Shown: piece by piece, positions 13,283-60,275 of the stretch | Layout: each line of letters begins with the position of its first letter | Numbering within the stretch: position 1 is the stretch's first letter | Assembly (NCBI GenBank): GCA_012862575.1 | Contig: BLSF01000001.1 | Span: 620,001-684,000, forward strand | From: Parietichytrium sp. I65-24A | Taxonomy: Eukaryota > Sar > Bigyra > Thraustochytrida > Thraustochytriidae | Direction of reading: 5' to 3' | Length of the DNA: 64,000 nucleotides | Program-made: the position numbers and the translations under genes | The notes under the pieces: model-generated | The model's input: only the letters and a program-made list of their open reading frames with translations | Database searches by the model: none | Told to the model about the DNA's origin: nothing

Positions 13283-13330
13283 TCGCACTTTCTCACTTTC
13301 TCACTTTCCCACTTTCCCACTTTGCCATTT
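13283..13330 (+). repeat. 8-bp tandem repeat upstream of start at 13458
   Basis: Five to six head-to-tail copies of an 8-mer of the form TCTCACTT / TCCCACTT (first copy TCGCACTT, last TGCCATTT). It lies 128-175 bp upstream of the ATG at 13458. Confidence 0.9.
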
Positions 13331-13363
13331 TCGCGCTGCGGCGTAGCAGTGTGGGGTGGCTTC

Positions 13364-13391
13364 GGTGTGGGGTGTGGGGTGTGGGGTGTGG
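13364..13391 (+). repeat. 7-bp tandem repeat upstream of start at 13458
   Basis: Four perfect copies of GGTGTGG. It ends 66 bp before the chosen ATG and accounts for the Gly/Trp/Val-rich peptide in the upstream GTG-started extension of the frame, which argues that the extension is not coding. Confidence 0.92.
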
Positions 13392-13457
13392 TGGCCTGGT
13401 CCGCGTTGGGCGCCAGGCGGTCCGCGCGGAACGTTCCCGAAACGTTGCTCGCTCGCG

Positions 13458-14726
13458 ATGGGGCGGAAGCGGGCAGCGCAGTGGGTGGCGGTGGCGGCGC
13501 TGGCGCTGCTGGGTGCGGCGGAGAGCGCGGACGGAGTGCGACTGTCCGGAGAAAGCGTTTCGCTGGGGCCAGATATTGACGCGCTGGAGAGGGAAGCGAA
13601 AGAACTGGAGAAGGAGGTCAACGATCTGGAGGCGAAGGCAAACGCCATTTCCAACAACAATAACAACAACAACAGCTCATACAACAGCTCATCGGCACCG
13701 ACGGCACCGACGGGACCGACGGGACCGAGTTCTGCGAAAACGGACAGTAAGGAGGACAGTACGAGCGAGCTGAAGGCTGCGGCGGCGCCCTCGGCGCTGA
13801 CGGAGAGCGAGATTAAGCAGGAGTTTACGATGGACGTTGTGTTCGCCACGCTGGGTTGCGTGTGCGGGATGGTGCTGGTGTTCGGCGGGGTCAAGTTGCC
13901 GCGGGTGTCGACGCTGCTGGTGGTGGGGCTCGGGGCCGGAACGATGGGGTTCTCGATAGTGTGGTTTAGCATGGAGCACGGGTGGCAGAAGAGCGATGCA
14001 TGGTACTCGCCGTTCCTCGGCGGGTACATCGGGGCATTTGTGCTGGGGGGAATGTTCTGCTTTGCGTCGTCATCGCTCCCGGTCAACTCGATGTTTACGA
14101 CTATTTTCCTTGGCGCGAGCTCATACATGTTTTTGGGCATTATGCTTAACACAGTGGGTATGTTCTCCGTTGTGAGCGAGACGACGCCGAGCTACTTTAT
14201 GTTCTCTATCATGGCGGGCAGCTTTTTCCTGCTTGGAGGTCTGCTCCACATGACATTGGCGATGGGCGGTTTTGTTCAAAAGCGGATGCTGGCGCTTGGG
14301 TCTTTTTGCTTTGTGGGGTCGTATTTTATGATTAAGTTTGCCGGCACCATACCCGAAAAGTACCCCTATGAGTGGTCCAATCTCTTCACAGACCCGAATG
14401 CAAGGACCTGGCAGTACTATTTAATGTTTGTCTTCACCTTTTTGACGACAACATTGGCTTGCTTTTTTCAGATTTATTGTTACTCGTCGCCGACAAATGA
14501 CGTCTTCTCTGACACAAGATCCGCAGAGTACAAGGATGAATACTTTTCTAAGGATGCGTACCACTCAGGGAACTCGCTGCCGCCTCCACAACACGCTAGC
14601 TCAAGACGAGTGTATGGTAGCAAGCAGCCCTCTTCCCAGCCAGGGTTCGGTTCATCTTATGTTCCGCCCCAAGGCGTCCAAGGTCACTCGCTTCAGGGGG
14701 TGGAGCGCTACGTTTCACATTTCTAA
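13458..14726 (+). CDS. Polytopic membrane protein with signal peptide, TMEM198/TM7SF3-like (DUF4203)
   Basis: 422 residues. The frame is open further upstream to a GTG at 13356, but that part is repeat-derived; the ATG at 13458 gives a clean signal peptide (MGRKRAAQWVAVAALALLG). Then come a short acidic heptad-like helix (residues about 33-60), an Asn/Ser/Thr/Pro-rich low-complexity linker with poly-Asn, and about seven to eight hydrophobic helices rich in Gly pairs between about residues 125 and 350. The cytosolic tail is Ser/Pro/Gln-rich. The glycine-rich helix pattern after a luminal N-terminus resembles the TMEM198/TM7SF3 domain; the assignment is tentative and the function unknown. It is convergent with the coiled-coil gene at 15075-17135. 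Confidence 0.6.
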   Translation: MGRKRAAQWVAVAALALLGAAESADGVRLSGESVSLGPDIDALEREAKELEKEVNDLEAKANAISNNNNNNNSSYNSSSAPTAPTGPTGPSSAKTDSKEDSTSELKAAAAPSALTESEIKQEFTMDVVFATLGCVCGMVLVFGGVKLPRVSTLLVVGLGAGTMGFSIVWFSMEHGWQKSDAWYSPFLGGYIGAFVLGGMFCFASSSLPVNSMFTTIFLGASSYMFLGIMLNTVGMFSVVSETTPSYFMFSIMAGSFFLLGGLLHMTLAMGGFVQKRMLALGSFCFVGSYFMIKFAGTIPEKYPYEWSNLFTDPNARTWQYYLMFVFTFLTTTLACFFQIYCYSSPTNDVFSDTRSAEYKDEYFSKDAYHSGNSLPPPQHASSRRVYGSKQPSSQPGFGSSYVPPQGVQGHSLQGVERYVSHF

Positions 14727-15074
14727 AGGACACAGTTGTATCATGTACCGTATCATTACCCGTTCCCGTCCTCACCTTAATTGTGCCGTTCAGACTGTTG
14801 CGAAGCTGCACCCTTCATTGAACAAAACGGCGTTTGAAGCCTATTACTCTAAATTGTCTTTCGACTTTATACAAACGATATACAGAAAAATTGCCATCCT
14901 CGTATACGACCGACCAGAACTGTCCAGGCTCAAATCGATCAAATCATGAATTGCTTTGTTGCGTTGTTGAATATCTCTATCAGCTCTATTTGCCTTTTTT
15001 ATGGTTTATTATATTTATAAAATTAAAAGAGCAAGATCGCTTTACCTCCTGGCGCCTTTGATCCATCCTCCCAA

Positions 15075-17135: not shown

Positions 17136-17162
17136 TTTCCCAACGCTCTTGCTTCCCAGCCA

Positions 17163-17194
17163 AGCCACTCAGCCACTCAAACACTCAAACACTC
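17163..17194 (-). repeat. 8-bp tandem repeat upstream of start at 17135
   Basis: Four 8-mers on the + strand: AGCCACTC twice, then AAACACTC twice. They begin 28 bp upstream of the ATG of the minus-strand coiled-coil gene. Confidence 0.9.
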
Positions 17195-18729
17195 AGCCCT
17201 CAATTTCAGAGTTTGCCCGCCACGTCTGAGAGCCCGCCCACCGTGTCCGTTCGAGCTCCTTTCTTCAAAGTTTCTTTCTTTCTTTCTTTCTTTCCCTTCT
17301 CTTGTGCCCAGAGCAATCCAGCGTCAAAGCAAGCACGTCTCTCTGTCTCTGTGTCTGCTTGTTTGTGTGTCTGAAGATTCCCGCTTTCTCACTTTGTTGA
17401 TTGACTTTGTTGTTTCTCTTTTGCAATGTAATCAATCTCAATCAATCAATCTTCTTCATTGAACAATGGGTTGATCAAAGTTGATCTCTCTTTTCTTTCA
17501 CGCATCTCATACTCTGCAATAGCCAGCTACTACTCAGTAATAGTGCTCCTTCACTCGGTAGCTTTAGCTAGTATATACTCTATACTCACCTCGAGTGTTA
17601 CTTGATAGCTACTAGCACTGTCTCGACGTTGATTTTTCGTCACTCCTGTTGGTACCATTAGCTATAGTATATCCTATGTGGCTAATAGATAGGAAAGGCG
17701 CTGAGATGGCCCGGGGAACAAACAGCGAACGGGTATGAATATAGTAATCAGTAGATAGCCTGTAGCCTTGCGGTTTGAGCGAGATAGATCTTGGGAGATT
17801 CGCTACTAGTACTAGGGCACGACTGTAGGTGGGAAAAGATAGGTTTGTGCAGAAGTTCGAAGTGTGAGCGTAAACGAGTATTAGACTATCCGCGTTTGCG
17901 TTTGCAAGAGATTGCAAGAGAGCTGATTGGCCGATAGTGAGTGAGATCGACTGCGGAAATAGCGGAAATAAATAAACTTCGTTGCGTTTGGATAGTTTGG
18001 ATCGACCAACTCACTATCTTATCTTGATTGAAATCTTGATCTCAATCATTCTCAACCAGTCAGTAATCACGTTTGTTTAGATCAATGAATCATCGAACGG
18101 TAGGAAGAGTAGGAAGAGCGTGGCAAGGTCAGACAGAAAACCGCTCCCCACTGCTCAGGAAGTTTAAAGTTAATTCTCATTTGGGTTCGATGTCGGGTCT
18201 CTCGTTGAAACACCGCATGCAGGTCATGATGGATGGTGATTCGGTCGTCTTCTTTCGCGCACTCGAGTGTCTCGAGTGAGCTGGACCCAGCTGCTGAGAC
18301 AGTGAGACTAGTGAGACGGACGTTTACTTGGGGCTCTGAGTTTAAAGAGCGGTGAACCGGCTTCCCTGTTTATCGGAACATATCGGAACCCTCGGGAGAG
18401 CGCGATGGAGAGCGAAAAAAAGTGCCAATTCACACGAGTGCGGTTTCAGACTGTGCTCTCCTTTCTTTATCAACGGTCGGCTGAGTCCTGTTTCTCGGAT
18501 CTTCCTAGCCCTATGCCATGCTAACCACTCTACTAGAAGACTCCGTGTTACCGGACTATTCAATCGGCTCTTATTCTGTGATTATCCGCAGCATTCACCT
18601 TGATATGCTCCACCATAAGTCGTCGCTAAAAAAGTCGTAAGTGGATGGCAAGTCTTGGTCAGGTGCGATTGTCACAAGACTTCCTCTGAACGCTCGCCAG
18701 TCTTCTTCGTGTGTTTTTGAAGAGATCGA

Positions 18730-18750
18730 ACCGCGTACCGCATACCGCGT
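18730..18750 (+). repeat. 7-bp tandem repeat upstream of start at 18919
   Basis: Three copies of ACCGCGT/ACCGCAT, about 170 bp before the ATG at 18919. A less regular duplication of CCATAGAGAT follows near 18768-18790. Confidence 0.85.
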
Positions 18751-19856: not shown

Positions 19857-21143
19857 CTACTCAGGTTTGGAGAACAATATTGCCGCGTTTGTCCCTCCAA
19901 AGCCGAATGAGTTGCAGATGGCAGCATTGACCTGGCGCTCGGATGGGCTGTTCACAACCAGGTCAACCTTGGCGACGACGTCTGCATCGATGTCTGTCTC
20001 ACCAAAATTTATCGTGGGAGGCACAACGTTGTTCGCGATGCTCAAAATTGTGAATATGGACTCTACTGCCCCAGCAGCACCTAACAGATGTCCTACGTGG
20101 CCTTTGGTTGAGGAGACTGCGGGTTTGTGGGAAAAGACGCGAGAAATTGCCTCCACCTCAACTGCATCTCCAAGAGGCGTTGATGTGGCATGAGCGTTAA
20201 TATAAGCAACTTGATTCTCGTCCACGCCGGAGTTGCGAAGCGCGCTTCTCATGCACTGCATCGCTCCTCGCCCATCCTCCGACGGAGCCGTGAGATGAAA
20301 CGCGTCACCAGAGAGGCCATAACCCTTGATTTCTGCGTATATATTTGCCCCCCGCTTCTTGGCATGCTCGTACTCCTCCAGTACAAGTACGCCGGCACCT
20401 TCGCCCATGACAAACCCGTCGCGTTCCTTATCGAATGGCCGCGATGCTTTCTCTGGAGTATCGTTGAACTTGGTCGAAAGCGCCTTCAGACGAGAGAATC
20501 CCGCAAACGAGAGAGCATGAAGAGATGACTCCGTGCCACCGGCAAGCATGGCATCTGCGTCCCCGTACTTGATCATGCGGTAGGAATCTCCAATGGAGTG
20601 TGCACCGGTGGCGCATGCTGTGGAGACCGCGTGATTTGGGCCCTGGAGGTTGAAGTGGATCGCAACGTGGCCAGCTGCAAGGTTGACCAAAAGACGTGGC
20701 ACAAAGTAAGGCGATAATCTTCGGATGCCCTTGCTTGCAACGAGCTCGTACGCCTCCGCGACTTCTTCGACGCTGCTGCCGATTCCCGACCCTATGGAAA
20801 CACCTACGCGAGTCCTGTCCACACGTCCAGCTTCCAAACCCTCCACCAGCCTCGAGTCGTGGATCGCTTCGTGCGCGGCACAGAGCGCATAAGTTATAAA
20901 CTTTGGGGACTGCGACCTTGCATTCGTGACTACCTTCCTCTCCGACACTGCCGCAGCGAGCTCTTCCTCTGGCACTACCGCTGCAACTCTTGCCCCCACG
21001 TCAATCTTTTCGCCACGAAACTTTGCCTCCCAGCTCTTGCCGGCGCCGACACCCCCAAGGATGCCCTTCCAGCTGCTGCCCACACTTGCGCCTAGCGGGG
21101 ACACCATCCCCACACCTGTGACCACCACTCGTCGCGCCGCCAT
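19857..21143 (-). CDS. 3-ketoacyl-ACP synthase, FabF/KAS II type
   Basis: 428 residues, a full-length single-domain KAS. Catalytic Cys177 lies in STACATGAH, His318 in NAHATSTPLGD, Lys347 in STKGHVGH and His352 in GHLLGAAG; the spacing matches the C-H-K-H set of bacterial KAS II (C163/H303/K335/H340). GEGAG and the C-terminal NSFGFGGTNA are also present. It should condense malonyl-ACP with acyl-ACP in type II fatty acid synthesis, in mitochondria if it serves the lipoate pathway. The N-terminus starts directly with the fold (MAARRVVVTGVG) and has no transit peptide; an in-frame TAA lies 12 bases upstream of the ATG, so no unspliced extension is possible. Confidence 0.93.
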   Translation of the reverse strand: MAARRVVVTGVGMVSPLGASVGSSWKGILGGVGAGKSWEAKFRGEKIDVGARVAAVVPEEELAAAVSERKVVTNARSQSPKFITYALCAAHEAIHDSRLVEGLEAGRVDRTRVGVSIGSGIGSSVEEVAEAYELVASKGIRRLSPYFVPRLLVNLAAGHVAIHFNLQGPNHAVSTACATGAHSIGDSYRMIKYGDADAMLAGGTESSLHALSFAGFSRLKALSTKFNDTPEKASRPFDKERDGFVMGEGAGVLVLEEYEHAKKRGANIYAEIKGYGLSGDAFHLTAPSEDGRGAMQCMRSALRNSGVDENQVAYINAHATSTPLGDAVEVEAISRVFSHKPAVSSTKGHVGHLLGAAGAVESIFTILSIANNVVPPTINFGETDIDADVVAKVDLVVNSPSERQVNAAICNSFGFGGTNAAILFSKPE

Positions 21144-31722: not shown

Positions 31723-34514
31723 TTACTCTTCCACCTTCTGATCGATTTGTGTGTCGCCAGATACCTCCTGCTGCGTGTTGTCTTCCTCGTCATCACTGCT
31801 GCTGTCGCTATCGCTATCACTGCTATCGCTGCTGTCATCATCATCATCGTCGTCGTCGTCACCATCGTCATCGCTGTCGCGTCGGCCAGAGAATAATTGC
31901 TGACGTTTCTTCATGATAAATTGCTTTTGAAGACTCTGGCTCTCTCGATTGATCGAGTCGATTTCGAACTTGAGCTCACTCACCTGCGCTCGGCTCTTGT
32001 TCAACTGTGATTCCATCTCCTTAATCTGCCTATTCTTATCTTTCAAATTTTGTTGATAGATGACAAGCTGCTCTGCAACCTCCGGCCCAGGTTGCCGAGC
32101 AAGGACGTTCTTGAGCTCCACGTAAAGCTTTTCTTGCTCTTCAATTTGCTGCGACTTCACAGCAACTTCCTCGGTCTTCTTAATCAACTTGACTTGAAGG
32201 CCCTGAATTTTGCGGATCAGAGCGAAGCGTTGAGGATCGCTGCTTTCCAGCTTGCGCCAGCGATGAACGTTGAGTGGCCGCTCCATCTCGTCGCTTAGAG
32301 CCTTGATCTTGCCACGCTCCTGAGCAATCTCGCGATCAAGGACAATACTCTCCTGTTCCAGTGCGGGAATCACTTTGATCTGCTCCTCAACTTCTGCTTG
32401 CTCAGCCTTCAGTTGGGTAACTGTCTGGCGAAGTGTTCCCAGATGGTTGATAATTTCATTGAACTGCGAATAGCCCTTCCTCAAGGAGCTTCCCTGGATT
32501 TTGATGTTTTCATACAGCTTAGAAAGTTCTTCATTCCGCTTGATAAGCTGCGTTCCCAACAGATCTCGCTCCGATATAATGCTTGCATACTCCTTCTGTT
32601 GACGTGATTGCTCTTCCTCAGCATCTGCGTGGCGGCAAAAAAAGCAACACATTACGCTTATTAGGAGCTGTTCCCTTACCCAAGCGACCCCAAAGGCCCG
32701 ACTTACCGTGCATAATTTGTGAGAGTTTGACAAGCTCTGCTTGTTGGCTTGCAATAATTTGTTCGGAAGAAAGCGTCTGCTTTTGTAATTTCGTGAGTTC
32801 ATTCTTCAAAATCTCGCGTTCCTTTTCCACTTTACTGTGGTCAAAATGCTCTTTCACCAGGCCGTGGTCCTTGCTCGTGATTTCTTCCTTCAGCGTTGTG
32901 ATTTGGTGGTTCATAATTTTAAATTTCCCTGCGCAAGTCAAAAGGAGAAACGGCGTTAGTATCGCATTTGCGCTTTTGCAACATCCTCATCGCTCAACCC
33001 AACTCACTTCTCATTTCCGAAATATCCTCTTGTGCATCAAGCAGGTTCTTGGAGTATAAATTCCTGTCACTCCGAACGGCTTCGTACAAATTAGCCTGCT
33101 GCTTAAGCTTAGTCTCTCCTTCTTGAATCTTCTTCTGCAATTCTAAAATCCGCGAGTCAGCAACTTTGACCTCCTCGATAGTGTTGAGGTATGTCTGGGT
33201 TTCCATCTTGAGCTGCTGCTCGTACTTTTGTACTTCTTCTTCAAGGCCCTCGATTGCCTGCCGATCCCTGATGGCGTCTGTTTTGTAACCTTGGATCTCA
33301 TTTTCGAGATTCTTCCGAGAGTTTCCATACACAGCGATGAGGTCGTGAATTTGCTTCGTGCGATCCTCTGCCTTCACTAGGGTTTTGTTCAAAATCTCTC
33401 TCTCCTTTTTGAGGTCGTCGACATGCCTCTGCAAGCTTTCATTCTGCTTCTTGGCGTTCTGAATCTCCCGCTCCACGACCTTCGTTTTCTCGCGAATGTG
33501 CAGTCTTTCAGTGTCGGCTTTCTTCTTTTGCCCATCGACCTCCTCCACTTTTTTTTCGGCTTGTGCGATTAGGGCTCTTATCTTTTTCAACTCCTTGTTG
33601 CAGCCTCGCTTCTCCGTGTCGATTTCGCCGATCGCCGTCTCCCGCTCCTCTATGAGTTCGCTCAGATGCTTGTTCACTCTGGCTTGATCCTCGAGTTCTT
33701 GTGTCAATCTTTGGGTCTGCTGAAATAGTTCGTCATATTGCTTCAAGTAGGTTTGCATCTTCTGCTTTGCCCCACGAACTCTTTGATCCATCATTTGAAG
33801 CTCCTGCTCCCCCTCCTTGTGGCGTTTTTCCTTGCTTGTCATCAGAATTTGGTACTTTTCAACATCTTGCTTAAGAGTTCTCAACTCTGCATCGACTCGA
33901 TCCCGACGAGTCTGAGCTTGTTTACATTCCGATTCAATTTCGTCGATTGCAGTTTGAATTTCGGCCAACTCCTCCTCGTGCTCGAGCTTTTTTGACTCCG
34001 CGGAGCGTACATTCGAAGTGAGTAGCTCGATATCGGAGCGGCTCACCTGAAGAGTTGTCAGACGCTGCTCCAACAAGTGGGCCAAGTCTGCCTCCTTCTT
34101 TCGTAACTGAGAAAGCTTCAGCTCCTGCTCGTGCGTCCATCCACTTCCGAATTGGGTCATTTCACCAAGCTTTTGAATCTCAACCCTCAAGTCTTCCACC
34201 TTGTCCTTCTTCTCCCTCTGCACCAGCTTTTGCTCTTGAATCTTCCGGCTGTTCCGCTCGATGTCTTCTTGTATGGTCTTCTTCGAGTGTTGCATGACCT
34301 CTTCGTCCGATTTGCACTTTGCGACCTTCTCGTTCTGCACCAGTATTTCTGTCTCCAGGTCCGCAGTCTTCTGCTTCAGCCGCGCATTCGAGTCATTGCT
34401 CTTTTCCAGCGCTCTGAACAACTTTTCGAATTCACCCTTCACCTTGTCCAGCCCTTCCAGCTTCATCACCGCATCTTCGAACAAGCCCTTGCTCTGCGCG
34501 AATTTGGCCTCCAT
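31723..34514 (-). CDS. CFAP58: Cilia- and flagella-associated protein CFAP58 (CCDC147) homologue, three exons
   Basis: The frame is interrupted by two short introns. Exons: 34514-33008, 32928-32707, 32624-31723. Intron 1 is 79 bp (donor GTGAGT, acceptor GCGCAG) and intron 2 is 82 bp (donor GTAAGT, acceptor ACGCAG); both are phase 1 and joining restores one frame of 876 residues, against 872 in human CFAP58. The protein is coiled coil throughout. The conserved C-terminal signature is present: PLNVHRWRKLE at about residue 690 and LARQPGPEVAEQL at about 750. A poly-Asp/Ser tail (about 830-860) follows. Known role: axonemal and mid-piece component required for flagellar assembly. It sits tail to tail with CFAP47, 240 bp apart. 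Confidence 0.9.
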
Positions 34515-35072: not shown

Positions 35073-38000
35073 TCATTTCTCATAAACTGACGAAGTCATC
35101 AAGGCACTCGAGGGCTTCACAGAGCGCACCTTGGTAGTTCTTGCGGTGTCCTTAGTCGAAGCCAATCCCAATCCTCCTGAGACGAGAAGCACAGGAGGAA
35201 CCACAAGCGAGCCATTTACTATTGCAGATCCGAATGCCGTCCCTGTGCATTGAATCATAAATGCTGTGCCTTGATCGTCGGAGTTGATGAGAATGAGTAC
35301 CACACCGCAAAAGACCGCTGTGTTGTACACCGAAAAGATGATGTACTTGTGCTCCACAAATGATGAGGGAATGTGCTTGGAACTAAATACGAGAATGCAC
35401 GCAGAAGCGATCAGCATTATCTTGAAGAAAAGTACCAAGAGCCTGAAAATATCACCTGAGGACTTGCACACCGTGTATTCGACGAGGTTGTCGGTGTCTG
35501 CCGAGGTGCTCAACTCCCATGTCGGGAGGTTGGAGACGGGTACATCGTGGTCGTTGACAGGCTTGATTGGGTCTATGAGAAGCCATGCAGCAATAATGAT
35601 GAAATCGATCAACACCAGAGATGATACAAGTACGAACATGTCCTTTGTCCTCAATGCGGTATTGCGGGCCTTTAGGGAGCTCTTGGAGAATAGCTTAAAA
35701 ACGCGATAGATCTTTGCCCACAGTGTTGCAAATACAATGTCGAATGCGATGTTAAAGCAGAGAACCCTCGCACCGCAGAGGGCAGTGGTGGGCTTTCCAA
35801 GAAAGAGAAGATTGGATGCGCACAACAACGCTCCACCAGCAGCCATCACCATCACAAACACAGGTTGTGTTTTCCACACCTCACTATGCGCCTGGAATCT
35901 GGTCAGCACGACAAGAAGAACACCGTTGAACAGTACTCCAAACATGCTCAGAGCGATTCCCACGGACGCCGGGGTCGAGCTCACCGCGACATAATCGCAA
36001 GGGACTGCGTCCTCATGGACCGGTAGCTCCATGATCTGTGAAAACTTTCCAGCTACGTCAGCTTCGATTCCGCAAAACATGGTCTCGTTGCTCTCGTTCG
36101 TGAGCCACTCATAGTTGATGGTGGAGTTCATGGTGGCAGGATTGCATACCCCTCGAACAATTCTCCACTGACTTCCATCGCACTGCGGGTACGAGTAGGG
36201 AGACTCAAAAGAGCCTTTGCCGGCCTGAAGGCCGATCGCAGTGGTGCAGTTGCCGGCTTCGGTTCCGAATTTGCTTCCATGGATTACCCCGAAAGGAGTG
36301 ACCTGTGGTTCCATGATCTCGATGCCGTCCAAGAAGTAATCGTTCCTGCCGACGCTCTTGTACCGAACGCTGTACTCGTCCAAGCAATCCGTTTCGGTGA
36401 TGGTATCGTTGGTTGCCAACGCTGTACCGTCCGCGCTCCAAAAGTGGGTTGGATCAAAAGCAACAGGATCCATCTCACGTTCGAACTCCACCTGATTACC
36501 ACAACCATATTTCCTCGCTCCATCTTCGTAGATAAGACTCCATCGCTTCTTAAGATTTGGTCCGCAAAAGATGTGGTGATATGCGTCGGTTCCTTTTGCC
36601 TTCTTTAGCGCTGCCCGTTTTGCTAGTATATATTTTTGATGGACTGCATCCAGCTTTGGACTGAAGTGTTCGGAGATGTCCACTGCATCTTCTCCCATGC
36701 CAAAAAAGAGCGACTCTTGAAGACTTGTGTCGAGTGCGCGCTCGGTCACGTTCCAGATTCCGTCTCTGATCTGATTGATGTAATGCTTGATGGTGGATGT
36801 CCAAGTGATCGTCTCCGAGGTGATGACGGAGTCTCCGATTAAGTACTTCAAGTCATAGTTGGAACCAATACTCTGGCCGCCAGCGTTCCGATAGTACACT
36901 TGTGCTTCTCTAGAGTTTGTGGCTTGCATCAAGATTGAGCACTTGCCCACATTGAATAGGAAGGCGGCAGCATCTTCCTCCGTTTGAGGCTCCGAGTATA
37001 CATTCAGAAACACCATACGAATCACACAGTCTGAATACGCCTCCTTGCATCCCACAGCAAACGCGTTGACGGCGTATGGGCTGGCAAGTGCGAAAGTGTT
37101 CAACAGTCCAATGCAAGGCGGCTCGGTTGCATTGTACGTGCCGTCTTCCTCTTTCTTCGCCCTCTCTGCCTTCAGCACAAACCCTGCAGCCAGACCGGCA
37201 AGGTACCTCGTCTGGTACGTTTTCGCATATGCATTGGATACAATATCACCTTTGCTAAAGTAACTGGTTCCGGCTCCTCCAAAGTACGTGACATGTTCCG
37301 CGGCATCGGAATCAGAACCGTCGCCTTCTTTGCGGCACCCTGCATAGTCTGCCATGTCCAAAATCTGCTTGGAGTACGACGATGAGGTGCAGACAATGAG
37401 GTCATAGTCCTTATCGCAGAGTTGCCTCATCAGGTTGATGGCGGGGTAGTATATGTTCTCCACCAAGTTGCCTTCGCCATCGTCAATGTATTCTGATACC
37501 TCCACACCGTCGGCAAAAGTAGTTTGTACGCTCTTCTGGTATGGCGCGTAGTCACCTTCGACAATGTCTTCATAGTACGTCGACGCGTCGATGGTCAAAC
37601 CAAATATGGACTCGACTTCAATTCTTGCACTATTGATCTGTGAATTCCAACTAAAGTCATCGACAGTGCCAGCGAAGATAAAAGCGATCCGAAGGCGTGG
37701 GTGCCACCCGAACTTGATTTGTTTCGGAGTGGAATAAGTCTGTCCTTTGTCGATGGATACAGAGACATCGTAAATGAGGTCCGGAATGCAGTCTCCTTGT
37801 TGAACTGGTTTGAAGTCATCATCGCAAGATATGATCCAGTTATCAGGTCGCTCGACCGCGACAGTGGTTGTCTCCACCGCGAATGATCCACCCACCGCAG
37901 ACAAGGTGCCTGAGGCGGTTGCGAACCATCCAGTTGAGGGATTTTGATATTTAATCACCAGATTTTCCTCAGCAATAGGATAAAGTCCGTCAAGAACGAT

Positions 38001-38468
38001 CACGAGTTTGTCTTTTCCAAAGGCGTTCAAGAGCGGCTCGGGTGTCAGTGTACCCACCGAGTTCATCGTGTAGTAAGTGCTCCAAGAGAGACGTTCTCGT
38101 GCGACAAACCCTCTGGTGAAGTAAGAATTGCAGACCTCTAAGCCTTCGGCGTCTCTCACCACGACGTGATATGTTGTGTCCGCCACAAACCCTGCGTTAA
38201 ATACGCTGAGAGATAAACGATGGCCGTCATCGCTCCGAGTGAGCGCTGTCGACGAGAAGAGTGCGATAGAGGTGTTGGTGTGGTGGACGGACACAGTGCT
38301 CTCGACAGGAAAAGAAGACCCAATAATGTCCAGTGACGCCGAATTATTTGCAGGCACAATTGACGGCTCGAACCTGAAGATAGCGCACTGAGACGAAGTG
38401 CTTCCAGCTTGCGCGCCTTCAACAAGGAGCGTGAGCAGGAGGCCACGTCGGCACATCTTTGCTATCAT
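35073..38468 (-). CDS. Class C GPCR with BMP/PnrA-type ligand-binding ectodomain (Grl-like)
   Basis: 1131 residues from the ATG at 38468; the longer frame needs a TTG. The N-terminus is a signal peptide (MIAKMCRRGLLLTLLVEGAQA). Residues about 30-250 form an extracellular beta-rich part. Residues about 258-575 match the basic membrane protein/PnrA periplasmic-binding fold: RIAFIFAGTVDDFSWN, YDLIVCTSSSY, TRYLAGLAAGFV, GIGSNYD-type and ITWTSTIKHYINQI segments. Seven hydrophobic helices run from about 826 to 1095 with class C marks such as WAKIYRVFKLF after TM3, DFIIIAAWLLIDP in TM4 and a FKIMLIASACILVFSSK TM5. The short cytosolic tail is Ser/Thr/Lys-rich. The same BMP-7TM architecture is known from Dictyostelium Grl (GABA-B-like) receptors. 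Ligand unknown; PnrA proteins bind nucleosides. Confidence 0.86.
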   Translation of the reverse strand: MIAKMCRRGLLLTLLVEGAQAGSTSSQCAIFRFEPSIVPANNSASLDIIGSSFPVESTVSVHHTNTSIALFSSTALTRSDDGHRLSLSVFNAGFVADTTYHVVVRDAEGLEVCNSYFTRGFVARERLSWSTYYTMNSVGTLTPEPLLNAFGKDKLVIVLDGLYPIAEENLVIKYQNPSTGWFATASGTLSAVGGSFAVETTTVAVERPDNWIISCDDDFKPVQQGDCIPDLIYDVSVSIDKGQTYSTPKQIKFGWHPRLRIAFIFAGTVDDFSWNSQINSARIEVESIFGLTIDASTYYEDIVEGDYAPYQKSVQTTFADGVEVSEYIDDGEGNLVENIYYPAINLMRQLCDKDYDLIVCTSSSYSKQILDMADYAGCRKEGDGSDSDAAEHVTYFGGAGTSYFSKGDIVSNAYAKTYQTRYLAGLAAGFVLKAERAKKEEDGTYNATEPPCIGLLNTFALASPYAVNAFAVGCKEAYSDCVIRMVFLNVYSEPQTEEDAAAFLFNVGKCSILMQATNSREAQVYYRNAGGQSIGSNYDLKYLIGDSVITSETITWTSTIKHYINQIRDGIWNVTERALDTSLQESLFFGMGEDAVDISEHFSPKLDAVHQKYILAKRAALKKAKGTDAYHHIFCGPNLKKRWSLIYEDGARKYGCGNQVEFEREMDPVAFDPTHFWSADGTALATNDTITETDCLDEYSVRYKSVGRNDYFLDGIEIMEPQVTPFGVIHGSKFGTEAGNCTTAIGLQAGKGSFESPYSYPQCDGSQWRIVRGVCNPATMNSTINYEWLTNESNETMFCGIEADVAGKFSQIMELPVHEDAVPCDYVAVSSTPASVGIALSMFGVLFNGVLLVVLTRFQAHSEVWKTQPVFVMVMAAGGALLCASNLLFLGKPTTALCGARVLCFNIAFDIVFATLWAKIYRVFKLFSKSSLKARNTALRTKDMFVLVSSLVLIDFIIIAAWLLIDPIKPVNDHDVPVSNLPTWELSTSADTDNLVEYTVCKSSGDIFRLLVLFFKIMLIASACILVFSSKHIPSSFVEHKYIIFSVYNTAVFCGVVLILINSDDQGTAFMIQCTGTAFGSAIVNGSLVVPPVLLVSGGLGLASTKDTARTTKVRSVKPSSALMTSSVYEK

Positions 38469-38482
38469 GACCGCTCCTCGAT

Positions 38483-38506
38483 GCGCAATGCACAATGCGC
38501 AATGCG
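38483..38506 (-). repeat. 7-bp tandem repeat upstream of start at 38468
   Basis: Three copies of GCGCAAT/GCACAAT on the + strand plus the start of a fourth. It begins 14 bp upstream of the chosen GPCR ATG, so it probably lies in the 5' UTR. Confidence 0.88.
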
Positions 38507-39793
38507 TGAGGCAAGCAGTGCAATTGCCGTCTCTTGGATCTGCAGTGACCTTGAAGCTGCAGCTCCGAAGAGTTCTGCGGTGAGTGAATTCACTTCCATT
38601 GCACCCTGGTCATTTAAAAAGGCATCGACGCATTGCTACTCTCATGCAGGCCAGGCACAACCTAGCAACTGCCACATCTCTATGAGCTCTGCCATTTTGC
38701 GTTGGGGAGGGGTGCACATCAGGTGTACACGGCGTACCCAAAAAGTACCAAGTGCTCGTTTGGTGCGCATGTGGAGAAGAAGCACGGGCGGACAAAGTTC
38801 AAGTCCCTTCCTCACCAGCTCCCCGTTTCCGTGGCACCTGCATTGTAAAACTTTCGAGTTGCGATTTCAACAATGAGAAAGGCTTCTTTGCAGGACCTCT
38901 GTAACAGCAAGGCTTCCCCGTTCTTCTCGCCGTCACTCTCTTTGCGCCTAAAGAAAAATGAATCGCGCAAAAAAATGAGTTAAAGAAGTGCGACATATCC
39001 GTTAGAACGTTTGGGCTGAGCTGAGCCTGAGCTGAGCAGAGTTTACTTCACTTCTGAATAATAAACTTTATTGATTGAGCTTACAAGACAAGTGTATTTC
39101 TTGTTTAGCGCATATCGACGAGAATGTAGGGAGTGGCAAATAACGTACCCTTCTCGTACACCCGTGAAAGTTTCACAGAATTCTTCACTCGCCACCATCT
39201 CCCTCATCTCCCTGCATTTGCTCTAGGGACATAAATTTTTATGCGGTGCTCTTATACACCAAAATAGGCAATGGGCCGGTCAAACGCTGCGACACGGTGT
39301 CACCCCATCCGAATATTCAAATTGCGGAACGCATTACGGAAAGACCACAGTGCCATTAGTCGTTAGTAAATTAGAAGCTATCCTAGTCGATTTCCTAGTT
39401 CATGAATAGATATGGGGAAAAAATGAGGACAAGAGCCACTCAAGTGTCCTCGCGAGGCTAACTGTGGGAATTGCTCTGCACAGAGGAGCTAATAGTCAGT
39501 TATTGGGCGAGTACGCTGACCGAGAGCCCAGTCTGAGTGCTTAGTGTGCGACTACTGCGCACAAACGCGAAAGATCTTTCAGGTAGACCTTGGTAAAAGT
39601 CACATTCGAAGCAAATCTGGGCCAAGCGAGAACTGGGACGGAGTCACGGTAGGGTGAATTCGTTTCCCCGGTTCCGGCTTACAGTCCGCTGGGGCAGTCT
39701 GTTCGATGGGCGGGTAGCTCGGAGTTGGGAATAAGACGCGTTTCCTCGGAGTATCTATCGCGTATTCTCGTCGCGGTCGTGTGTGGGAAAGGA

Positions 39794-39830
39794 GCCTTGG
39801 AACCTTGGAGCCTTGGAACCTTGGAGCCTT
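39794..39830 (+). repeat. 8-bp tandem repeat upstream of start at 39898
   Basis: Alternating copies of GCCTTGGA and ACCTTGGA (four full units and a partial one), 67-104 bp before the ATG. Confidence 0.92.
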
Positions 39831-39897
39831 TCGGTAGTAGGTACGGCGTCGACGCAATCAAGATATCCGCGGAGCGTGTCCGCGCGCTGGATTCGCT

Positions 39898-50888: not shown

Positions 50889-52023
50889 TGTTGTTTCACC
50901 AGTCGTTTCTCCTGATCTTTACTCAGGCACCGCAACCGCGCCGCGCGGCACTTCAAGCGAGCTTGCGCACAACGCAAGCCCAAGATGCTCTTTCAGAGCA
51001 GCCCTAATTCAGAGCGCTCTCGACGCTCACGATCACACAAGAAATCCGGTGTTTTCGCGTCCACTGCAACCGAAAAACGCGCGCACAGCACTCCGCACCC
51101 CGGACAGACAGACGCGCCCCTTTCGTTCTATCGCAGTTTCGCACTTTTCCTGGCGGCCTTTGCTTGAGAGTGATACCTTTGGGACAACGCTCGCCGCGTG
51201 AGCTTGGCAGGGATCTCGTGCGTGCTGCGGTGTTGCGCTTCCACTTCAACCCATTCACGGCCAATTCAAACTCAATGTAGTCTGCGTGTGCAAGTCTCGG
51301 AGCACGGGCGAGCACTGGTAGTGTGGGCTGCGTGAGCATCATGATTGGGGAGATTGGTGCCAAGTGAAAGAAGATATGCGAGGGTACTGTACGCAAATGT
51401 TTGTTACCAAGTTCTAGAGACTGTCCCGGTCTTGCATTGAAATTCGAGTAATTGGAGCGCAGAGGAAAGAAAGCAAAAGTTGGGATTTTAGTTGTTCTAC
51501 TAATTTAGAAAGCTGCTCAATCAGAATTCAGAATTGGAAATTCAGATTCAGAATCCTGCTAATCTGTGAGTCGAAACGTGTCTGAACGACCGTCCTTCTT
51601 CTCAGTCAAAACACTTTATGCACGTCTTCCGAGCTTGCGTGCCGCACATCACCCACCACTCATGCTGCTGCGGCGATTGCCGCGTCTTTCTCACGCGCTT
51701 CGAGCGACGTACCCTTCGCATGAGCGTCGCACATCTCATTATCGCATTCGCAGTTAACATAACACTACGACTCATCACTCCTATCTACTAACAATAGTAG
51801 TAGTTTTTCCTCACCTGAACGGATCATTTTTGCGGAACGCAAAGATAGAGAGTTCATGAGCATTCTTTTGGTGTTCAGGTTAAAGGACCCCGTGACGGGG
51901 CGCGAGTGTACCAGACTCGGCGCAGAAGAAGAGAGATTGAGTTGTGAGTGTGAGAGTGTGAGAGTGGATATTCTTGTTGACTTTTGGTAGGTCCGCGCGC
52001 ACGTCCGCGCTGGGTCAGGTAAT
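50889..52023. other. Divergent promoter region between the CNBD2-like gene and RGP1
   Basis: About 1.1 kb with no supportable gene. An 8-mer tandem repeat lies at 51942-51967, just before RGP1. The sequence near 51520-51560 contains small AATTCAGA duplications. Confidence 0.6.
51942..51967 (+). repeat. 8-bp tandem repeat upstream of start at 52024
   Basis: Two full copies of GTGTGAGA with partial copies on each side, 57 bp before the ATG of RGP1. Confidence 0.85.
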
Positions 52024-54340: not shown

Positions 54341-55441
54341 CTACAATTTCGCGCTCGGGAAGGACCTGATCTTACCTCTCCTCTCTTGAATCATTTCCAA
54401 CCTCTTAAAACTTGGATTCATCTTCTCATCTGGTCCCAGACGCTCCATGAAAGCTTTTACGACCTCGTCGTTCAGCATACCAGTGAAAAGCCACTGCTCG
54501 TCCTCGCGGAGTCTGTCCAACATGACACTGTTGCAGTAAGCAACCAGGGTTTCCAGATCCAGAAACTGTTCCAATTCGATGAGGGCAGCTCCGGTCATGA
54601 TTAACGGATCTCGCCTCCTCCTTCCGACACGGTAAAACTCATTCTTCTGCCACTCGTTCACATAAACATCCTCCAACACGCTGGTCAAGCATTGCTCAAA
54701 AGCTTGTTCCAGAGGTACCCATTGGAGTTGATACACCTCGGGACTCATAGCTTCCTTTTCTTGCTTGGAGTACTTGAAGTAAGGGCAGTCGGGGAGCTTT
54801 AGAAAGGCCTGAAAGTTCTCGCGCCTTTGCTTCAGTGCGAGGTTGATCTCATCGATGTCCAGGTTGTTGAGCCAAGGATTTTCTTCGGCAATCGCCACAA
54901 AATTGTACATCAAATTGGATCGGGACCTGATCGGCCTCGTCTGCTTGACTGAGAATGGCCGAAGGAAGATGCTTTCCGAAGGGACCTGAGTCTCAGCGGG
55001 CCTCAGGAATTCCTCTGCCAGCTCGCGTTTCGCAGCCTCTTCTACCGTCTCATCAGAGTCCACATTCCCCCCAGCAAGCTTAAATTCTCCAGGATATCGC
55101 ATCGTCACGAGCTTCTCTGGCGTACTTCGCATCCAGTTGATGACTTCAGACTGCCCAAGAAGAACCTCCCACGGGGACTCAAAGAAGAACCCGCTTCCGC
55201 TGAGATACTGTCTCAAGAACGGGTGCTCCAGGGACTCTTGACCAAATTTCTTCACAAACGACTCCTTAAAGCACGCCTTCTTTGCCTTCGCCTGGCCCCC
55301 AGCGTCCCGTCTTCTCCGAATGCACATCACTGTCGCGCTATCTCGAACTGTAAGCTCCCCGCGGACCTCAAAAGGGTCGGGCTTTTTCCCTCCGAACCCA
55401 GCCAACCCGCCGCCTTCTGCTTGCGCTCCAGCCTGCGCCAT
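54341..55441 (-). CDS. NUDIX hydrolase-domain protein
   Basis: 366 residues from the ATG at 55441; the longer frame begins with a GTG. The NUDIX box lies at about residues 123-144 with GNVDSDETVEEAAKRELAEE, matching G-x5-E-x7-REU-x-EE; the usual glycine after the EE pair is replaced by leucine. Flanking regions are long for the family, and residues about 250-366 are mostly helical and unassigned. The substrate (a nucleoside-diphosphate-linked compound in general) cannot be predicted. A strong splice donor (AG/GTAAGA, intron from 54375) and acceptor (polypyrimidine tract then CACAG, exon from 54157) would replace the last 11 residues by QQLSAT with a stop at 54135; the unspliced stop is given here. 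Confidence 0.75.
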   Translation of the reverse strand: MAQAGAQAEGGGLAGFGGKKPDPFEVRGELTVRDSATVMCIRRRRDAGGQAKAKKACFKESFVKKFGQESLEHPFLRQYLSGSGFFFESPWEVLLGQSEVINWMRSTPEKLVTMRYPGEFKLAGGNVDSDETVEEAAKRELAEEFLRPAETQVPSESIFLRPFSVKQTRPIRSRSNLMYNFVAIAEENPWLNNLDIDEINLALKQRRENFQAFLKLPDCPYFKYSKQEKEAMSPEVYQLQWVPLEQAFEQCLTSVLEDVYVNEWQKNEFYRVGRRRRDPLIMTGAALIELEQFLDLETLVAYCNSVMLDRLREDEQWLFTGMLNDEVVKAFMERLGPDEKMNPSFKRLEMIQERRGKIRSFPSAKL

Positions 55442-55460
55442 ATTCCCCTCCTTTTCCACC

Positions 55461-55487
55461 TTCCACGAATTCCACGAATTCCACGAG
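55461..55487 (-). repeat. 9-bp tandem repeat upstream of start at 55441
   Basis: Three copies of TTCCACGAA on the + strand, starting 20 bp upstream of the NUDIX ATG. Confidence 0.9.
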
Positions 55488-55532
55488 CACCGTAGAAGGG
55501 CGAGCCAAGTGTGTCACGTTCACGCCGTTGGA

Positions 55533-55597
55533 GCACTTTGCCGCACTTTGCACTTTGCACTTTGTCAAAGTTCCAAAGTTCCAAAGTGCCAAAGTTC
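55533..55597 (-). repeat. Compound 7/8-bp tandem repeat with inverted arms
   Basis: Three contiguous GCACTTT units (55543-55563) are followed by 8-mers TTCCAAAG, TTCCAAAG, TGCCAAAG (55571-55594). The first block (CACTTTG) and the second (CAAAGTT/CAAAGTG) are partly complementary, so an imperfect hairpin is possible. Confidence 0.85.
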
Positions 55598-56327
55598 TAG
55601 TACTGCACGCTTCACATGCACTCTTTCAAAGCTCAGTCATGCTCAGTCCGCCTGTCTCACATGTGCAGAATGTGCAGTGTCTCATGTGTCTCATGTCTCT
55701 CCCATGTTCAACTCTAGTTCAACTAGTTCAACTCAATCTATCTATCAATCAGTGAAAACGCGGAGCACTGAGCTGATAATTGATCAATACGAAGCCTTCA
55801 TATTCGAATATTGGGGTATTTGCCAATATTTAAAACCTTCACTCTTGAAATCTCTTGAACTGTATTGAAGTGGACTGAAAGCCAAGACCCATCGAATACC
55901 AGGAAATTGTAGCGCTCAGCTAGAGGATACCATAGGCTTGCAGATGAGGGTGGCAGTGACGATGAGGACTTGGAGGATCACCAGGTCCACTCTGAGCATA
56001 CTCGTCCGCGCGCACCGAGGGGAAGTTTAAGGATTCGGTAGGAAACTAGCTATATAATTTCAGGGGACATACGTGCGTCTAGTATCATTGGTGCTGAGAC
56101 AAGTTGGTGGGGACCTTGTGGGATCAAGAGATTAGATCACTTGGAGAGTGAAGGCGTGATCTGCCTCTGCTGTTGGGGCTGTTTTGCTACGTGGAGAACA
56201 CGATAGTTTGCTGCGTCGGAGAATCGAGGAAGGACTCGCAAAGTCTCGGGTGAAAGGGGGCAGAGTAAGATTAGAGCATTTACGCGTCGCCGGACACAGT
56301 CGGCGGCGGAAGGTGCGCGCCGCCAGG

Positions 56328-57107: not shown

Positions 57108-57336
57108 GAAAAGAGACCTGTGAACACTTCTTGTCGTTGCGTACAAAATTGCGTGCATGCTTTCATTACAAAATATCACCTATTACATAATTTTGGTTAG
57201 TTCTATCGCAAGGGTTTGTATCTATGTTCTATGTTCATTCAAAAAAAGCCGCGAGCATGCTTTGGCCCACTTCGTCTGCCAATCAGCGTTGCTTGCGCGC
57301 AAAGGAGCTGCCGAAGCACTCGGTGTCGAGAGCAGC

Positions 57337-57675
57337 TCAGATGCGGCCCATAGCATTAAAAAGATATGGAGTAGTACGTCGCTTTGCAGCTTTGACTCGG
57401 CGGTCTTTCGCGTTCGGAGGCTTGTAATCCTTTTCAAACTCTTCTTCGCCAAGGCTCTCGAAGCAGAAACTAAGTTGCCGTTCGCAGCGAAAGACCACGG
57501 GTTGTTGCTCCTCCTGACTAGGTTGGATCGGGTCCAACTTCTTCATTGCCACCTCTTGAGGAGCCTCCGGCTCGGAACATTTGCGGGCCTTTTCACATTT
57601 CTTTGCAGGCTTGAATGGCCAGATGCGGGCAGCGCTTGGCGCTGATCGTTCTAAATACGGGGATGCAGCGGCCAT
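57337..57675 (-). CDS. Small unknown protein
   Basis: 112 residues from an ATG in good context (ACAAAATGGCC); the longer frame begins with a TTG at 57714. The composition looks coding: balanced charged residues, a basic N-terminal third, VVFRCERQLSFCFESL in the middle, an acidic EEEFEKDY and a basic C-terminus ending in TTPYLFNAMGRI. No domain is recognised. It is convergent with the DIX gene, 229 bp away. It might be one exon of a longer gene extending into the gene-poor stretch to the right. Confidence 0.5.
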   Translation of the reverse strand: MAAASPYLERSAPSAARIWPFKPAKKCEKARKCSEPEAPQEVAMKKLDPIQPSQEEQQPVVFRCERQLSFCFESLGEEEFEKDYKPPNAKDRRVKAAKRRTTPYLFNAMGRI

Positions 57676-58751
57676 TTTGTCGTGAAGTCTGCTTCTGTCG
57701 CGACTCTTTTGCAATGCCTACTCTTGCATTCACTTTTCCTCGCCCGGAATTCGGGTTCTGCCTTGCTTAAGCGCTCTGCTCTGCCAGGATCAGGCATCTT
57801 TATGATTATCTCTAGCGAGGCGGCAGTGCAAGCCCGACTGCAGCGCTGTGCGGCGGACGTTTTTCATCAGCAGCCATTGTTCCCCGTACGGTTAATGATT
57901 TCTTGAACATTCAGCAGGCCGCAGCACGCCATCCATTCAAAGATACCTAGCAAGTTGCTGGAACAGTGCTCTGGACGGGTATGGAGGTCGTGTGCCACAA
58001 TGGTTTGACGGTTGAGCTAGAGATAGCTAGAGCTCCAACGCTTTTCATTCTCATATACACGAAGCCTCGCGAGGCTGCCAGTGGAATTTTTGTTACTTGC
58101 ATTGTTGGACTTTTTCATCCCGCCGTCCACATTTGGTCCTCACACATTCTTCGCCCGATTCACAGTAGATTCCTAACTACAGGCGTAGCACTAAAATGCA
58201 TGCATGTCTAAAAAAGTGCGATGAAAGTAAAAGCGAGATTTGGAAGCCCTATAGGAGTCATACCCGCGTCGTAGTGGGGCCATCTCGCGGATATTTTCCC
58301 GCTCTCCCCCGTTCCTTTGATTTTTATCATCGAATGCAAAAGACGTCAAATTTCAGTCCAGACTTCCAAGATGCAGGTTTGAGTCGCAAGTGTCTGTGTA
58401 CTAGTACTCAGTACCCATGGCTCGCGCGAAGGCCAATGCGAGATGGATTCGCCTGCGCGAGGTTCTTCAGGTATATGAACGCGCCAACGTTTTAGTCCAC
58501 TGAACGCCACCTTATCGATTGGATGGCGTGCAATCGACCGCTGTATACTTTGCATCCATCCCATCTGACAATCCCCGCCATCTCCGCCGCGCCATTCATC
58601 GCCAGCCGACTGCGTTCACTGCGCCGAATTAGCGAAATGACACAAACTTTCATTTCTTTTCCCAAATTGAAATACTAATTGAACTTGCCTTTGATGAGGT
58701 ACTGACTGTGAGTACGCTTGCAGCGATTCCGGTTTGGAATAGTTAGCAGAA

Positions 58752-58772
58752 AGTACTCAGTACTCAGTACTC
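58752..58772. repeat. 7-bp tandem repeat AGTACTC x3
   Basis: Three perfect copies of the near-palindromic AGTACTC in the gene-poor stretch. Isolated copies of TAGTACTCAGTAC occur about 350 bp to the left, near 58399. Confidence 0.9.
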
Positions 58773-60188
58773 CGTCCTTCACGGGCCGTCGCTTTAGACC
58801 ATCATCCGAGTCATTCGGGCTCACGAAGCCTTATCGGAGTCCCGCACCACATCACCGCACACGCAAGATCGTCTCAACAGTTTAGACAGTGCAGTGCTGG
58901 TGCAATCATCGCTTCATCGGATCATGTGTCAATCCAAATCCTATATCCGTCCGTCGTCTGCTTCTCGAAGCACTTGGAGATCATCGAAGCCGCAACCATT
59001 TACTCACCCCCATTCCAAGTCCACCTTGCTCTTCGTCACCGATTTCGAATGCAATGCACTCTTCGTGCTGAACAGATGTCCCTCTAGGAGAGGCACGTAG
59101 ACAGCCTCACAGGATTCGCGCAGGGTAGCCAGATTACGCGAATTGTTAAAGCCACTTGCTAGAGCTCCAGAGGTGCATCATCCTTCACATAGATGCCTTT
59201 GCTGGATCTCGATGCGACCATGCACTGGTCTGATCCAATTCAAGACTTCCGTTCACACTGCGCGCACACCGTTATGTCTCTTGCGTGGAGTTCCGCAAGT
59301 CCCGGGCTACTGTACGTACTCGCAGTCGGTACCTTCGCTTCAGGCGTCGTTGCCTGAAAATGCCTGCAGATGTTGTTTCTTATTGACAGTGAACAGCTCT
59401 CCTTTGCTGTTCAATCAAGTTTCTCTTCCTCTGTTTCCGTTTTTGATAGCTTGCTGGGTCATTCTGGGCCATGGGGCTCGGCAGCTGAGGTCCAAGCCAA
59501 ACCGCGCGCTACAACGGAAGCCAGGGTTTGGAACCAGGACCAATGCGAATCGCAGAGCTGGCATGGGTTCCTAACTGACTAATGCGTCCTCACTGCGACC
59601 CCTCTCTCAAGAGCTGCTGAGCTGTCGCGGTCTTCGCCCCGTCCGTCCTTCGCCGTGCGGAACTCTTTCTTTCCTGCCTTCCACCATCATCCACATTCAC
59701 ATCCACATATATCCACATCCACCATCACAGTATCACAGCTTTGTCACATTGTCAACATTGTCATCTGTCCTGGTTTTCCCGATTATCCCGAAAAAGCGAG
59801 CGAATTACCGTTCCTTCTGACCGCAGCCTACTTCGCCTACCACCATCGGCATTATCCACTCAAGCTACCACCGCCACTACCATTTCGGCTACCAACTACT
59901 ACCCAGATAGAGCTACTCATTAGCAGAGTCATCTGAGGGTATAGATTTAGCTCTAACCCTCCTCATAGTGACGAGCGACTACTATTGATTGTTCCATTTT
60001 CATTGGAATTGATTGACCTCGAGTCAGGTCAATCGGCGCATCGGTGTTGTCGGTGTTTCTCTGGTTTCTCGATTGAAAGAAAGTGGCTCAATTGGCGAAA
60101 GCGCAGTGCTCACAGCAACACAGCAAGACAGCCGCCGGGAAACGGGGAGACGAAGAGACGAACAGGGTTTACTCGAGCAGCGCGAGGT

Positions 60189-60215
60189 GAAAGACGAAAG
60201 GCGAAAGGCGAAAGG
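60189..60215 (+). repeat. 7-bp tandem repeat upstream of start at 60348
   Basis: GAAAGAC once, then GAAAGGC twice and a final GAAAGG, four units in tandem; 133-159 bp before the ATG. Confidence 0.88.
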
Positions 60216-60233
60216 TGTTAGTGTGCGTGCTGC

Positions 60234-60275
60234 TCTGTGGTCTGTGGTCTGTGGTTTGTGGTCTGTGGTCTGTGG
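60234..60275 (+). repeat. 7-bp tandem repeat (TCTGTGG x6) upstream of start at 60348
   Basis: Six contiguous 7-mers, five TCTGTGG and one TTTGTGG. It ends 73 bp before the ATG and produces the Val/Cys/Gly/Leu/Trp peptide in the GTG-started upstream frame, which is therefore unlikely to be translated as part of the enzyme. Confidence 0.93.

Follow-up and report, generated by a model that had tools for sequence, protein, structure and literature searches.

Tandem arrays of 7-8 bp units before gene starts and scattered 9-10 bp duplications in the noncoding DNA of a thraustochytrid genome window

Why should the DNA just upstream of protist genes carry short tandem arrays whose unit sequence differs at each gene while the unit length hardly varies? 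The question is raised by a 64-kb stretch of the genome of Parietichytrium sp. I65-24A (contig BLSF01000001.1, positions 620,001 to 684,000; hereafter the window, with positions counted from its first letter), in which an earlier note had pointed to 7-9 bp arrays upstream of eight starts. Two layers of repetition were found: arrays of 7-8 bp units that concentrate in the last 200 bp before gene starts and, beyond the arrays of that note, pairs of two copies, mostly 9-10 bp apart, which are spread over noncoding DNA without start bias. The sample is one window with about 12.8 kb of noncoding DNA. The DNA was divided into 2,600 bp near starts (at most 200 bp from one of 13 listed starts), 8,739 bp farther 5′, 1,430 bp of 3′ DNA between convergent genes, and 51,172 bp of coding DNA. 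The start at 63941 (minus strand), with only 59 bp of upstream DNA inside the window, was omitted from the start counts, and some of the 13 starts are guesses based on open reading frames, that at 34514 in particular being perhaps not a true start.

Tandem Repeats Finder recovered all the arrays described earlier, with copy numbers from 2.6 to 6.9, and reported an array at each of the eight starts. Its near-start arrays, and one distal exception, are as follows.

13286..13332, upstream of the start at 13458 (plus): 8-bp array of the CACTTTCC type, 5.9 copies
13364..13391, upstream of 13458 (plus): 7-bp array GGTGTGG, 4.0 perfect copies
17163..17202, upstream of 17135 (minus): 8-bp array of the AGCCACTC type, 5.1 copies
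18730..18748, upstream of 18919 (plus): 7-bp array ACCGCAT, 2.7 copies, weak
38481..38506, upstream of 38468 (minus): 7-bp array ATGCGCA, 3.7 copies
39791..39830, upstream of 39898 (plus): 8-bp array of alternating GGAGCCTT and GGAACCTT, 5.0 copies, also readable as a 16-bp higher-order unit in 2.5 perfect copies
51946..51966, upstream of 52024 (plus): 8-bp array GAGTGTGA, 2.6 copies
55461..55486, upstream of 55441 (minus): 9-bp array TTCCACGAA, 2.9 copies
55543..55564, upstream of 55441 (minus): 7-bp array GCACTTT, 3.1 copies
55566..55597, upstream of 55441 (minus): 8-bp array CAAAGTTC, 4.0 copies
60185..60215, upstream of 60348 (plus): 7-bp array AGGCGAA, 4.4 copies
60234..60281, upstream of 60348 (plus): 7-bp array TCTGTGG, 6.9 copies
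58752..58772, distal exception, about 1.6 kb from the nearest listed start: 7-bp array AGTACTC, 3.0 copies

The weakest near-start arrays are those at 18730-18748 and 51946-51966. Unit length is 7-8 bp in 11 of the 12, and no common motif, as a shared transcription-factor site would give, was found among their units, which bears out the earlier description of a narrow unit length combined with a unit sequence particular to each gene. The distance to the start is not fixed, the midpoints of the arrays lying 25-180 bp away.

Arrays were counted by class as Tandem Repeats Finder rows with a period of 7-9 bp and 2.5 or more copies. Twelve of them fall near starts, eight farther 5′ and none in 3′ DNA (binomial p = 0.0001), with five in coding DNA; with 3.5 or more copies the numbers are eight near, one farther and none in 3′ DNA. 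The contrast weakens when periods of 5-12 bp are admitted (12 near, 13 farther, none in 3′ DNA, 6 coding; p = 0.0018). Since several arrays share one gene, tiles of 200 bp were used as a second count: a 7-9 bp array occurs in 8 of 13 start tiles versus 6 of 43 distal ones (Fisher p = 0.0015), and one with 3.5 or more copies in 6 of 13 versus 1 of 43 (p = 0.0003). The earlier note would have been contradicted by a density near starts no higher than in distal or 3′ sequence; within the window the arrays are enriched near starts.

On the minus strand at 57337-57675, an open reading frame of 112 amino acids may represent a small gene absent from the list, which would be convergent with the DIX gene. 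It overlaps 57382-57573 (minus), which with a codon-usage score of 12.3 against a shuffled maximum of 11.2 is the sole stretch above its shuffles in 13 noncoding segments; the rest of these segments score like shuffles. Addition of this candidate (start 57675, minus) brings the starts to 14 and the tile counts to 8 of 14 versus 6 of 35 (p = 0.008), or 6 of 14 versus 1 of 35 for 3.5 or more copies (p = 0.0013), and when the start at 34514 is dropped, 8 of 12 listed starts, or 8 of 13 with the candidate, have an array. Missed coding regions were therefore rejected as the cause of the start effect, which survives the addition of the candidate gene, though weaker. No 7-9 bp array lies within 200 bp of the starts at 21143 (minus), 22276, 34514 (minus), 50888 (minus) and 56328, nor of the candidate start at 57675 (minus).

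The spectrum of repeat lengths was obtained by counting exact self-matches offset by offset, the large offsets (41-199) serving as the control. In the 11.4 kb of 5′ and mixed noncoding DNA, matches of at least 7 bases number 11, 14, 14 and 16 at offsets 7, 8, 9 and 10, versus 0.64 expected at each; offsets 1, 2, 3 and 4 give 0, 1, 4 and 8, and offsets 11 to 17 give 2, 7, 1, 11, 4, 11 and 3. Offsets 7-10 also dominate among matches of at least 10 bases, of which there are none at offsets 1-3, three at offset 4 and one each at offsets 5 and 6. Across all noncoding segments, 12, 14, 16 and 14 runs have periods of 7, 8, 9 and 10 bp, versus 1.1, 1.1, 1.1 and 0.36 in 200 order-2 Markov simulations. 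Homopolymers in the window reach 8 bases at most, and four perfect dinucleotide runs have 5 or more copies, one of them noncoding (34610). Microsatellite-like dominance of 1-6 bp units is thus absent from the 5′ and mixed noncoding DNA. Units of 1-3 bp are rare in noncoding DNA, in keeping with the earlier note; offset 4 is raised (8 versus 0.64). The excess at offsets 7-10 does not have the 2-4 bp size of duplications induced by topoisomerase II (Top2); a minor 2-4 bp class may nevertheless be present, given the mild rise at offset 4 and the difficulty of detecting such duplications in static sequence.

Coding DNA is depleted of these repeats and shows a different spectrum. Its matches of at least 8 bases lie mainly at multiples of three (8, 6, 6, 5 and 3 at offsets 3, 6, 9, 12 and 15, versus 0.94), with three each at offsets 2 and 4 and 0, 2 and 0 at offsets 7, 8 and 10. 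All five of the 7-9 bp arrays in coding DNA have period 9, a multiple of three.

The two-copy layer was counted as exact runs with periods of 5-12 bp, a definition that admits fewer imperfect copies than Tandem Repeats Finder does and under which a tetranucleotide run at 17271 scored as an 8-mer array. Subtraction of the clusters with 2.5 or more copies (11, 3, 0 and 3) from totals of 16, 32, 3 and 24 leaves 5 two-copy clusters near starts (2,600 bp), 29 farther 5′ (8,739 bp), 3 in 3′ DNA (1,430 bp) and 21 in coding DNA (51,172 bp). In noncoding DNA the pairs are several-fold above simulated chance (about 0.47 per kb). As two-copy duplications occur all over noncoding DNA, short duplication per se is no promoter feature. 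Outside the arrays, matches of at least 7 bases number 2, 3, 13, 11, 2 and 6 at offsets 7 to 12, versus 0.46 per offset; masking the arrays itself strips 7-8 bp matches, so the contrast with the arrays is partly one of construction. Given that the pairs are of 9-10 bp and the arrays of 7-8 bp, no claim is made that the arrays grew from such pairs. Masking also abolishes the excess at offset 14 and lowers offset 16 from 11 to 5. Groups of pairs are as follows.

17902..18389, distal intergenic: seven 9-10 bp pairs (17902, 17953, 17986, 18100, 18262, 18301, 18371), each of two exact copies 0-1 nt apart
55631..55859, between the starts at 55441 (minus) and 56328 (plus): five 9-10 bp pairs (55631, 55661, 55677, 55714, 55842)
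12818, 55631, 55842, 58015 and 59701: 8-bp direct repeats with a self-complementary 2-nt spacer

Tandem Repeats Finder extends the pair at 18301 to 2.7 imperfect copies, and those at 55677 and 55714 to 2.8.

The junctions of these pairs have a structure of their own. Outside the arrays, five 8-base copies have a 1-nt spacer (offset 9) and five a 2-nt spacer (offset 10); two pairs of 9-mers have a 1-nt spacer, and at offsets 11 and 12 one 8-mer has a 3-nt and three have a 4-nt spacer. Eight pairs at offsets 9-10 are spacer-free, with 9-11 matching bases. The 2-nt spacers of the five 8-mer pairs are AT in four cases and GC in one, all self-complementary (nominal chance 0.001, noticed post hoc), and those of three 7-mer pairs are CA, GA and TG, which are not. 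Single mismatches at offsets 9-10 fall in the outer two positions of either end in 12 of 15 cases, where uniform decay would place about 42% (p = 0.003), in a test devised after looking at the data and limited to these 15 pairs; about 0.9 of the 15 single-mismatch windows is expected by chance (0.68 + 0.22). Elsewhere the outer positions hold 3 of 8 mismatches at offset 8 and 7 of 10 at offset 7, the latter mostly background with 7.16 windows expected by chance, and the sole case at offset 11 is internal. Decay of perfect duplications was rejected for offsets 9-10, the mismatches clustering at unit ends beyond what uniform decay gives. The small sample hints that additional bases entered when the copies were joined, which both the end-joining of a staggered break and transposon footprints would show.

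The DNA in which the arrays lie is also distinguished by its composition. Transcribed leaders that are prone to R-loops typically have more G than C on the sense strand. Upstream of the 13 starts this skew is 0.243, 0.270 and 0.222 in the first three 50-bp bins and about 0 beyond 300 bp; with the arrays masked it is 0.228, 0.168 and 0.237, positive in 12, 11 and 12 of the 13 genes. Its presence over 150 bp and its fading beyond 300 bp suggest transcribed leaders of roughly 150-200 bp. On the sense strand G outnumbers C in nine of the 12 near-start arrays, the exceptions being those at 13286, 18730 and 38481. Array-less genes are skewed as well, and the skew can therefore be at most permissive. 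Widespread motifs and arrays hardly coincide. The most widespread 6-mer, TTCCTC, recurs in 8 of the 13 upstream regions and is missing from all 12 near-start arrays. Nine widespread 6-mers were compared with these arrays; seven do not occur in any of them, and the other two occur in a single array apiece. CACTTT, read on either strand, turns up in 5 of the 13 regions, with two genes contributing most of it.

Other proposals about this zone fared less well. It had been suggested that the open frame extending upstream of the ATG may make array zones mislead gene callers; the in-frame open stretches upstream of the 13 starts measure 12-168 nt, with a mean of 68 nt, which is about the random expectation, and they cover an array at 4 of the 8 genes, so that no special hazard for gene callers is supported. 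A helical-spacing effect, also suggested, would call for units of about 10.5 bp, yet 11 of the 12 near-start arrays are of 7-8 bp and offset 11 has 2 matches; offset 14 is a harmonic of the 7-mers, since it vanishes with the arrays masked, and helical spacing was rejected as the main cause. Hairpin or snap-back copying was likewise set aside, inverted repeats being only mildly enriched and well under the direct repeats (arms of 6 bp or more: 8 and 10 at loops of 0 and 1, versus 2.29 per loop; arms of 8 bp or more: 7 cases over loops 0-20, versus 0.12 per loop).

We propose, tentatively and with somewhat less than even confidence, that arrays and pairs are local mutation products and not a shared control element. 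In the model, short segments, mostly 9-10 bp apart, would be duplicated in place across noncoding DNA, giving the two-copy pairs; here the pattern is observed and the chemistry is presumed. In coding DNA, where pairs are near the chance level, selection would remove pairs and arrays, presumably as most of them shift the frame. In the last 200 bp before starts, where units of 7-8 bp are seen in 3-7 copies, slippage or unequal exchange may have driven the growth, with open chromatin, and single strands that transcription would expose, as contributing factors. The array zone is probably core promoter plus 5′ leader, with a skew of the R-loop-linked kind. The arrays would be tolerated there because the DNA is noncoding, and they may change expression incidentally.

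Several observations weigh against this proposal. Outside the arrays, offsets 7 and 8 have so few matches that pairs do not simply become 7-8 bp arrays, and each layer may have a cause of its own; it is this contrast in unit length that lowers our confidence in a joint model. Five of 13 starts (6 of 14 with the candidate gene) have no array though the skew is general, and the three arrays without sense-strand G over C depart from it. Ordinary slippage should also yield 1-3 bp repeats, yet these are rare. The mismatches at unit ends at offsets 9-10 exceed uniform decay, and offset 12 is raised outside the arrays (6 versus 0.46). A bolder possibility, to which we give a small chance, is that the lineage has a duplication process with a molecular ruler, in which about 8-9 nt would be copied in place across noncoding DNA, the junction often receiving 1-2 untemplated bases that are A/T-rich and perhaps self-complementary, and a second, start-linked process would multiply 7-8 bp units into promoter arrays. 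If true, this would amount to a germline mutational signature of its own, in which duplications of 7-10 bp take the place of the usual 1-3 bp microsatellites.

The pairs alone, with their concentration at offsets 9-10 and their mismatches at the outer positions, would also be expected from staggered double-strand breaks with overhangs of about 8-9 nt, made by a topoisomerase, a nuclease or an abortive transposase, filled in and end-joined, sometimes with one or two untemplated bases. Fill-in and end-joining are established for 2-4 nt duplications after trapped Top2, as excerpts of PMC11477040 have it, but the 4-nt overhang of Top2 is too short, and a stagger of 8-9 nt has here no enzyme to match. 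With a junction test chosen after the data were seen, no effect at offset 8, an offset 7 that is mostly background and an offset 12 that is raised as well, we regard such breaks as an improbable source. Excision footprints of a cut-and-paste DNA transposon with a target-site duplication of about 8 bp, the arrays then being a separate phenomenon, are very improbable. The 8- and 9-mers with spacers of 1-4 nt at offsets 9 to 12 have the right form, and the five self-complementary 2-nt spacers are as expected if each inverted end left one base; the 2-nt spacers of the 7-mer pairs are not of this kind, and eight pairs at offsets 9-10 are spacer-free. Copy length, which footprints should keep constant, is frequently 8-9 at offsets 9-10, but there are also copies of 9-11 bp with no spacer, and the arrays have units of 7-8 bp. 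A search of the window for candidate elements with inverted ends flanked by an 8- or 9-bp target duplication found none at the thresholds applied, and no transposase family is among the Pfam matches shown for 17 proteins (for one protein, the best 25 of 28 families).

For the arrays, the alternative would be selected cis-regulatory elements that tune each gene through their copy number, acting either as repeated binding sites or by excluding nucleosomes. That arrays of 3.5 or more copies hug the starts, and that the array layer is unlike the generic pairs in unit length, is what such elements would produce, and yeast offers a precedent in what PMC3899988 relates in part; we nonetheless judge them unlikely, for the unit differs at each gene without a shared motif, the distance to the start is variable, 5 of 13 starts lack an array, and no relatives were found for the four proteins tried. 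The tunable regulatory element of the earlier note has no positive support in the window. That this is nothing more than the usual level of short tandem repeats in the noncoding DNA of eukaryotes, viewed in a small sample, appears quite unlikely. Such a view could draw on the modest size of the data, which comprise just the 12.8 kb and 13-14 starts; the order-2 Markov expectation is, however, exceeded more than tenfold at periods 7-10, and the window is unlike the mononucleotide-rich picture that PMC12699852, so far as its excerpts go, gives for all eukaryotic kingdoms, protists included.

The genes of the window (G+C 50.6%, no tRNA genes in its 64 kb) encode large eukaryotic proteins, mostly without interruption. 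Among them are a VPS13-like protein, a ciliary protein like HYDIN/CFAP47, CFAP58, a ketoacyl synthase, and Rgp1, NUDIX, DIX, GAF and cytochrome b5 reductase proteins. From the ciliary genes we infer that the organism is probably a flagellate, intron-poor protist. The gene at 35073-38468 (minus) joins a PnrA-like Bmp domain and a 7tm_3 receptor domain in one protein. At 31723-34514 (minus) the CFAP58 domain is spread across two open reading frames in an otherwise intron-poor window, which points to an intron or other break near 32803-32993. Single-protein queries, which reach close relatives only, gave no confirmed relative for the 7tm_3 receptor, cytochrome b5 reductase and Rgp1 proteins in a viral contig collection, nor for one CFAP58 reading frame in a genome contig collection.

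Repeat landscapes are usually described through microsatellites of 1-6 bp. A protist whose noncoding DNA has few of these and many duplications of 7-10 bp would imply a different source of insertion mutations, and would be a clean system for separating the origin of duplications from their expansion; start-proximal arrays, if they vary in copy number among strains, would be natural expression variants. Excision footprints of hAT-type DNA transposons derive from an 8-bp target duplication. The pairs resemble them as 8-bp direct repeats a few bases apart and differ in that neither element nor transposase was seen in the window and spacer-free duplicates of 9-11 bp are present too. The de novo duplications induced by Top2 are also short tandem copies where none was, made by fill-in and end-joining, but according to excerpts of PMC11477040 they measure 2-4 nt (larger ones mainly five), as against 7-10 bp, often with extra junction bases, in the window; they therefore do not explain the size seen here. 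Among the titles and abstract beginnings of the literature searched, none described arrays of 7-10 bp upstream of protist genes, and the word 'tandem' did not occur in a paper on Theileria noncoding DNA. In a survey of repeats with 1-9 bp units (PMC12699852, in excerpt), mononucleotide repeats lead in frequency in every eukaryotic kingdom, and the vicinity of starts is enriched in mono- and dinucleotide repeats in various protists and fungi; the concentration by gene starts is common to both, whereas the window is poor in mono- and dinucleotide repeats and dominated by 7-10 bp units. In yeast, by the excerpted account of PMC3899988, about a quarter of genes have tandem repeats, which are enriched in nucleosome-free promoter DNA. 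The promoter repeats of Vinces et al., cited there, are tandem repeats just upstream of genes, as found here at 8 of 13 start tiles; the window differs in the dominance of 7-8 bp units, the rarity of 1-3 bp units and its five array-less starts among 13, all known here from the DNA letters only. Promoter tandem repeats are thus already known, and it is the 7-10 bp unit length that sets the window apart.

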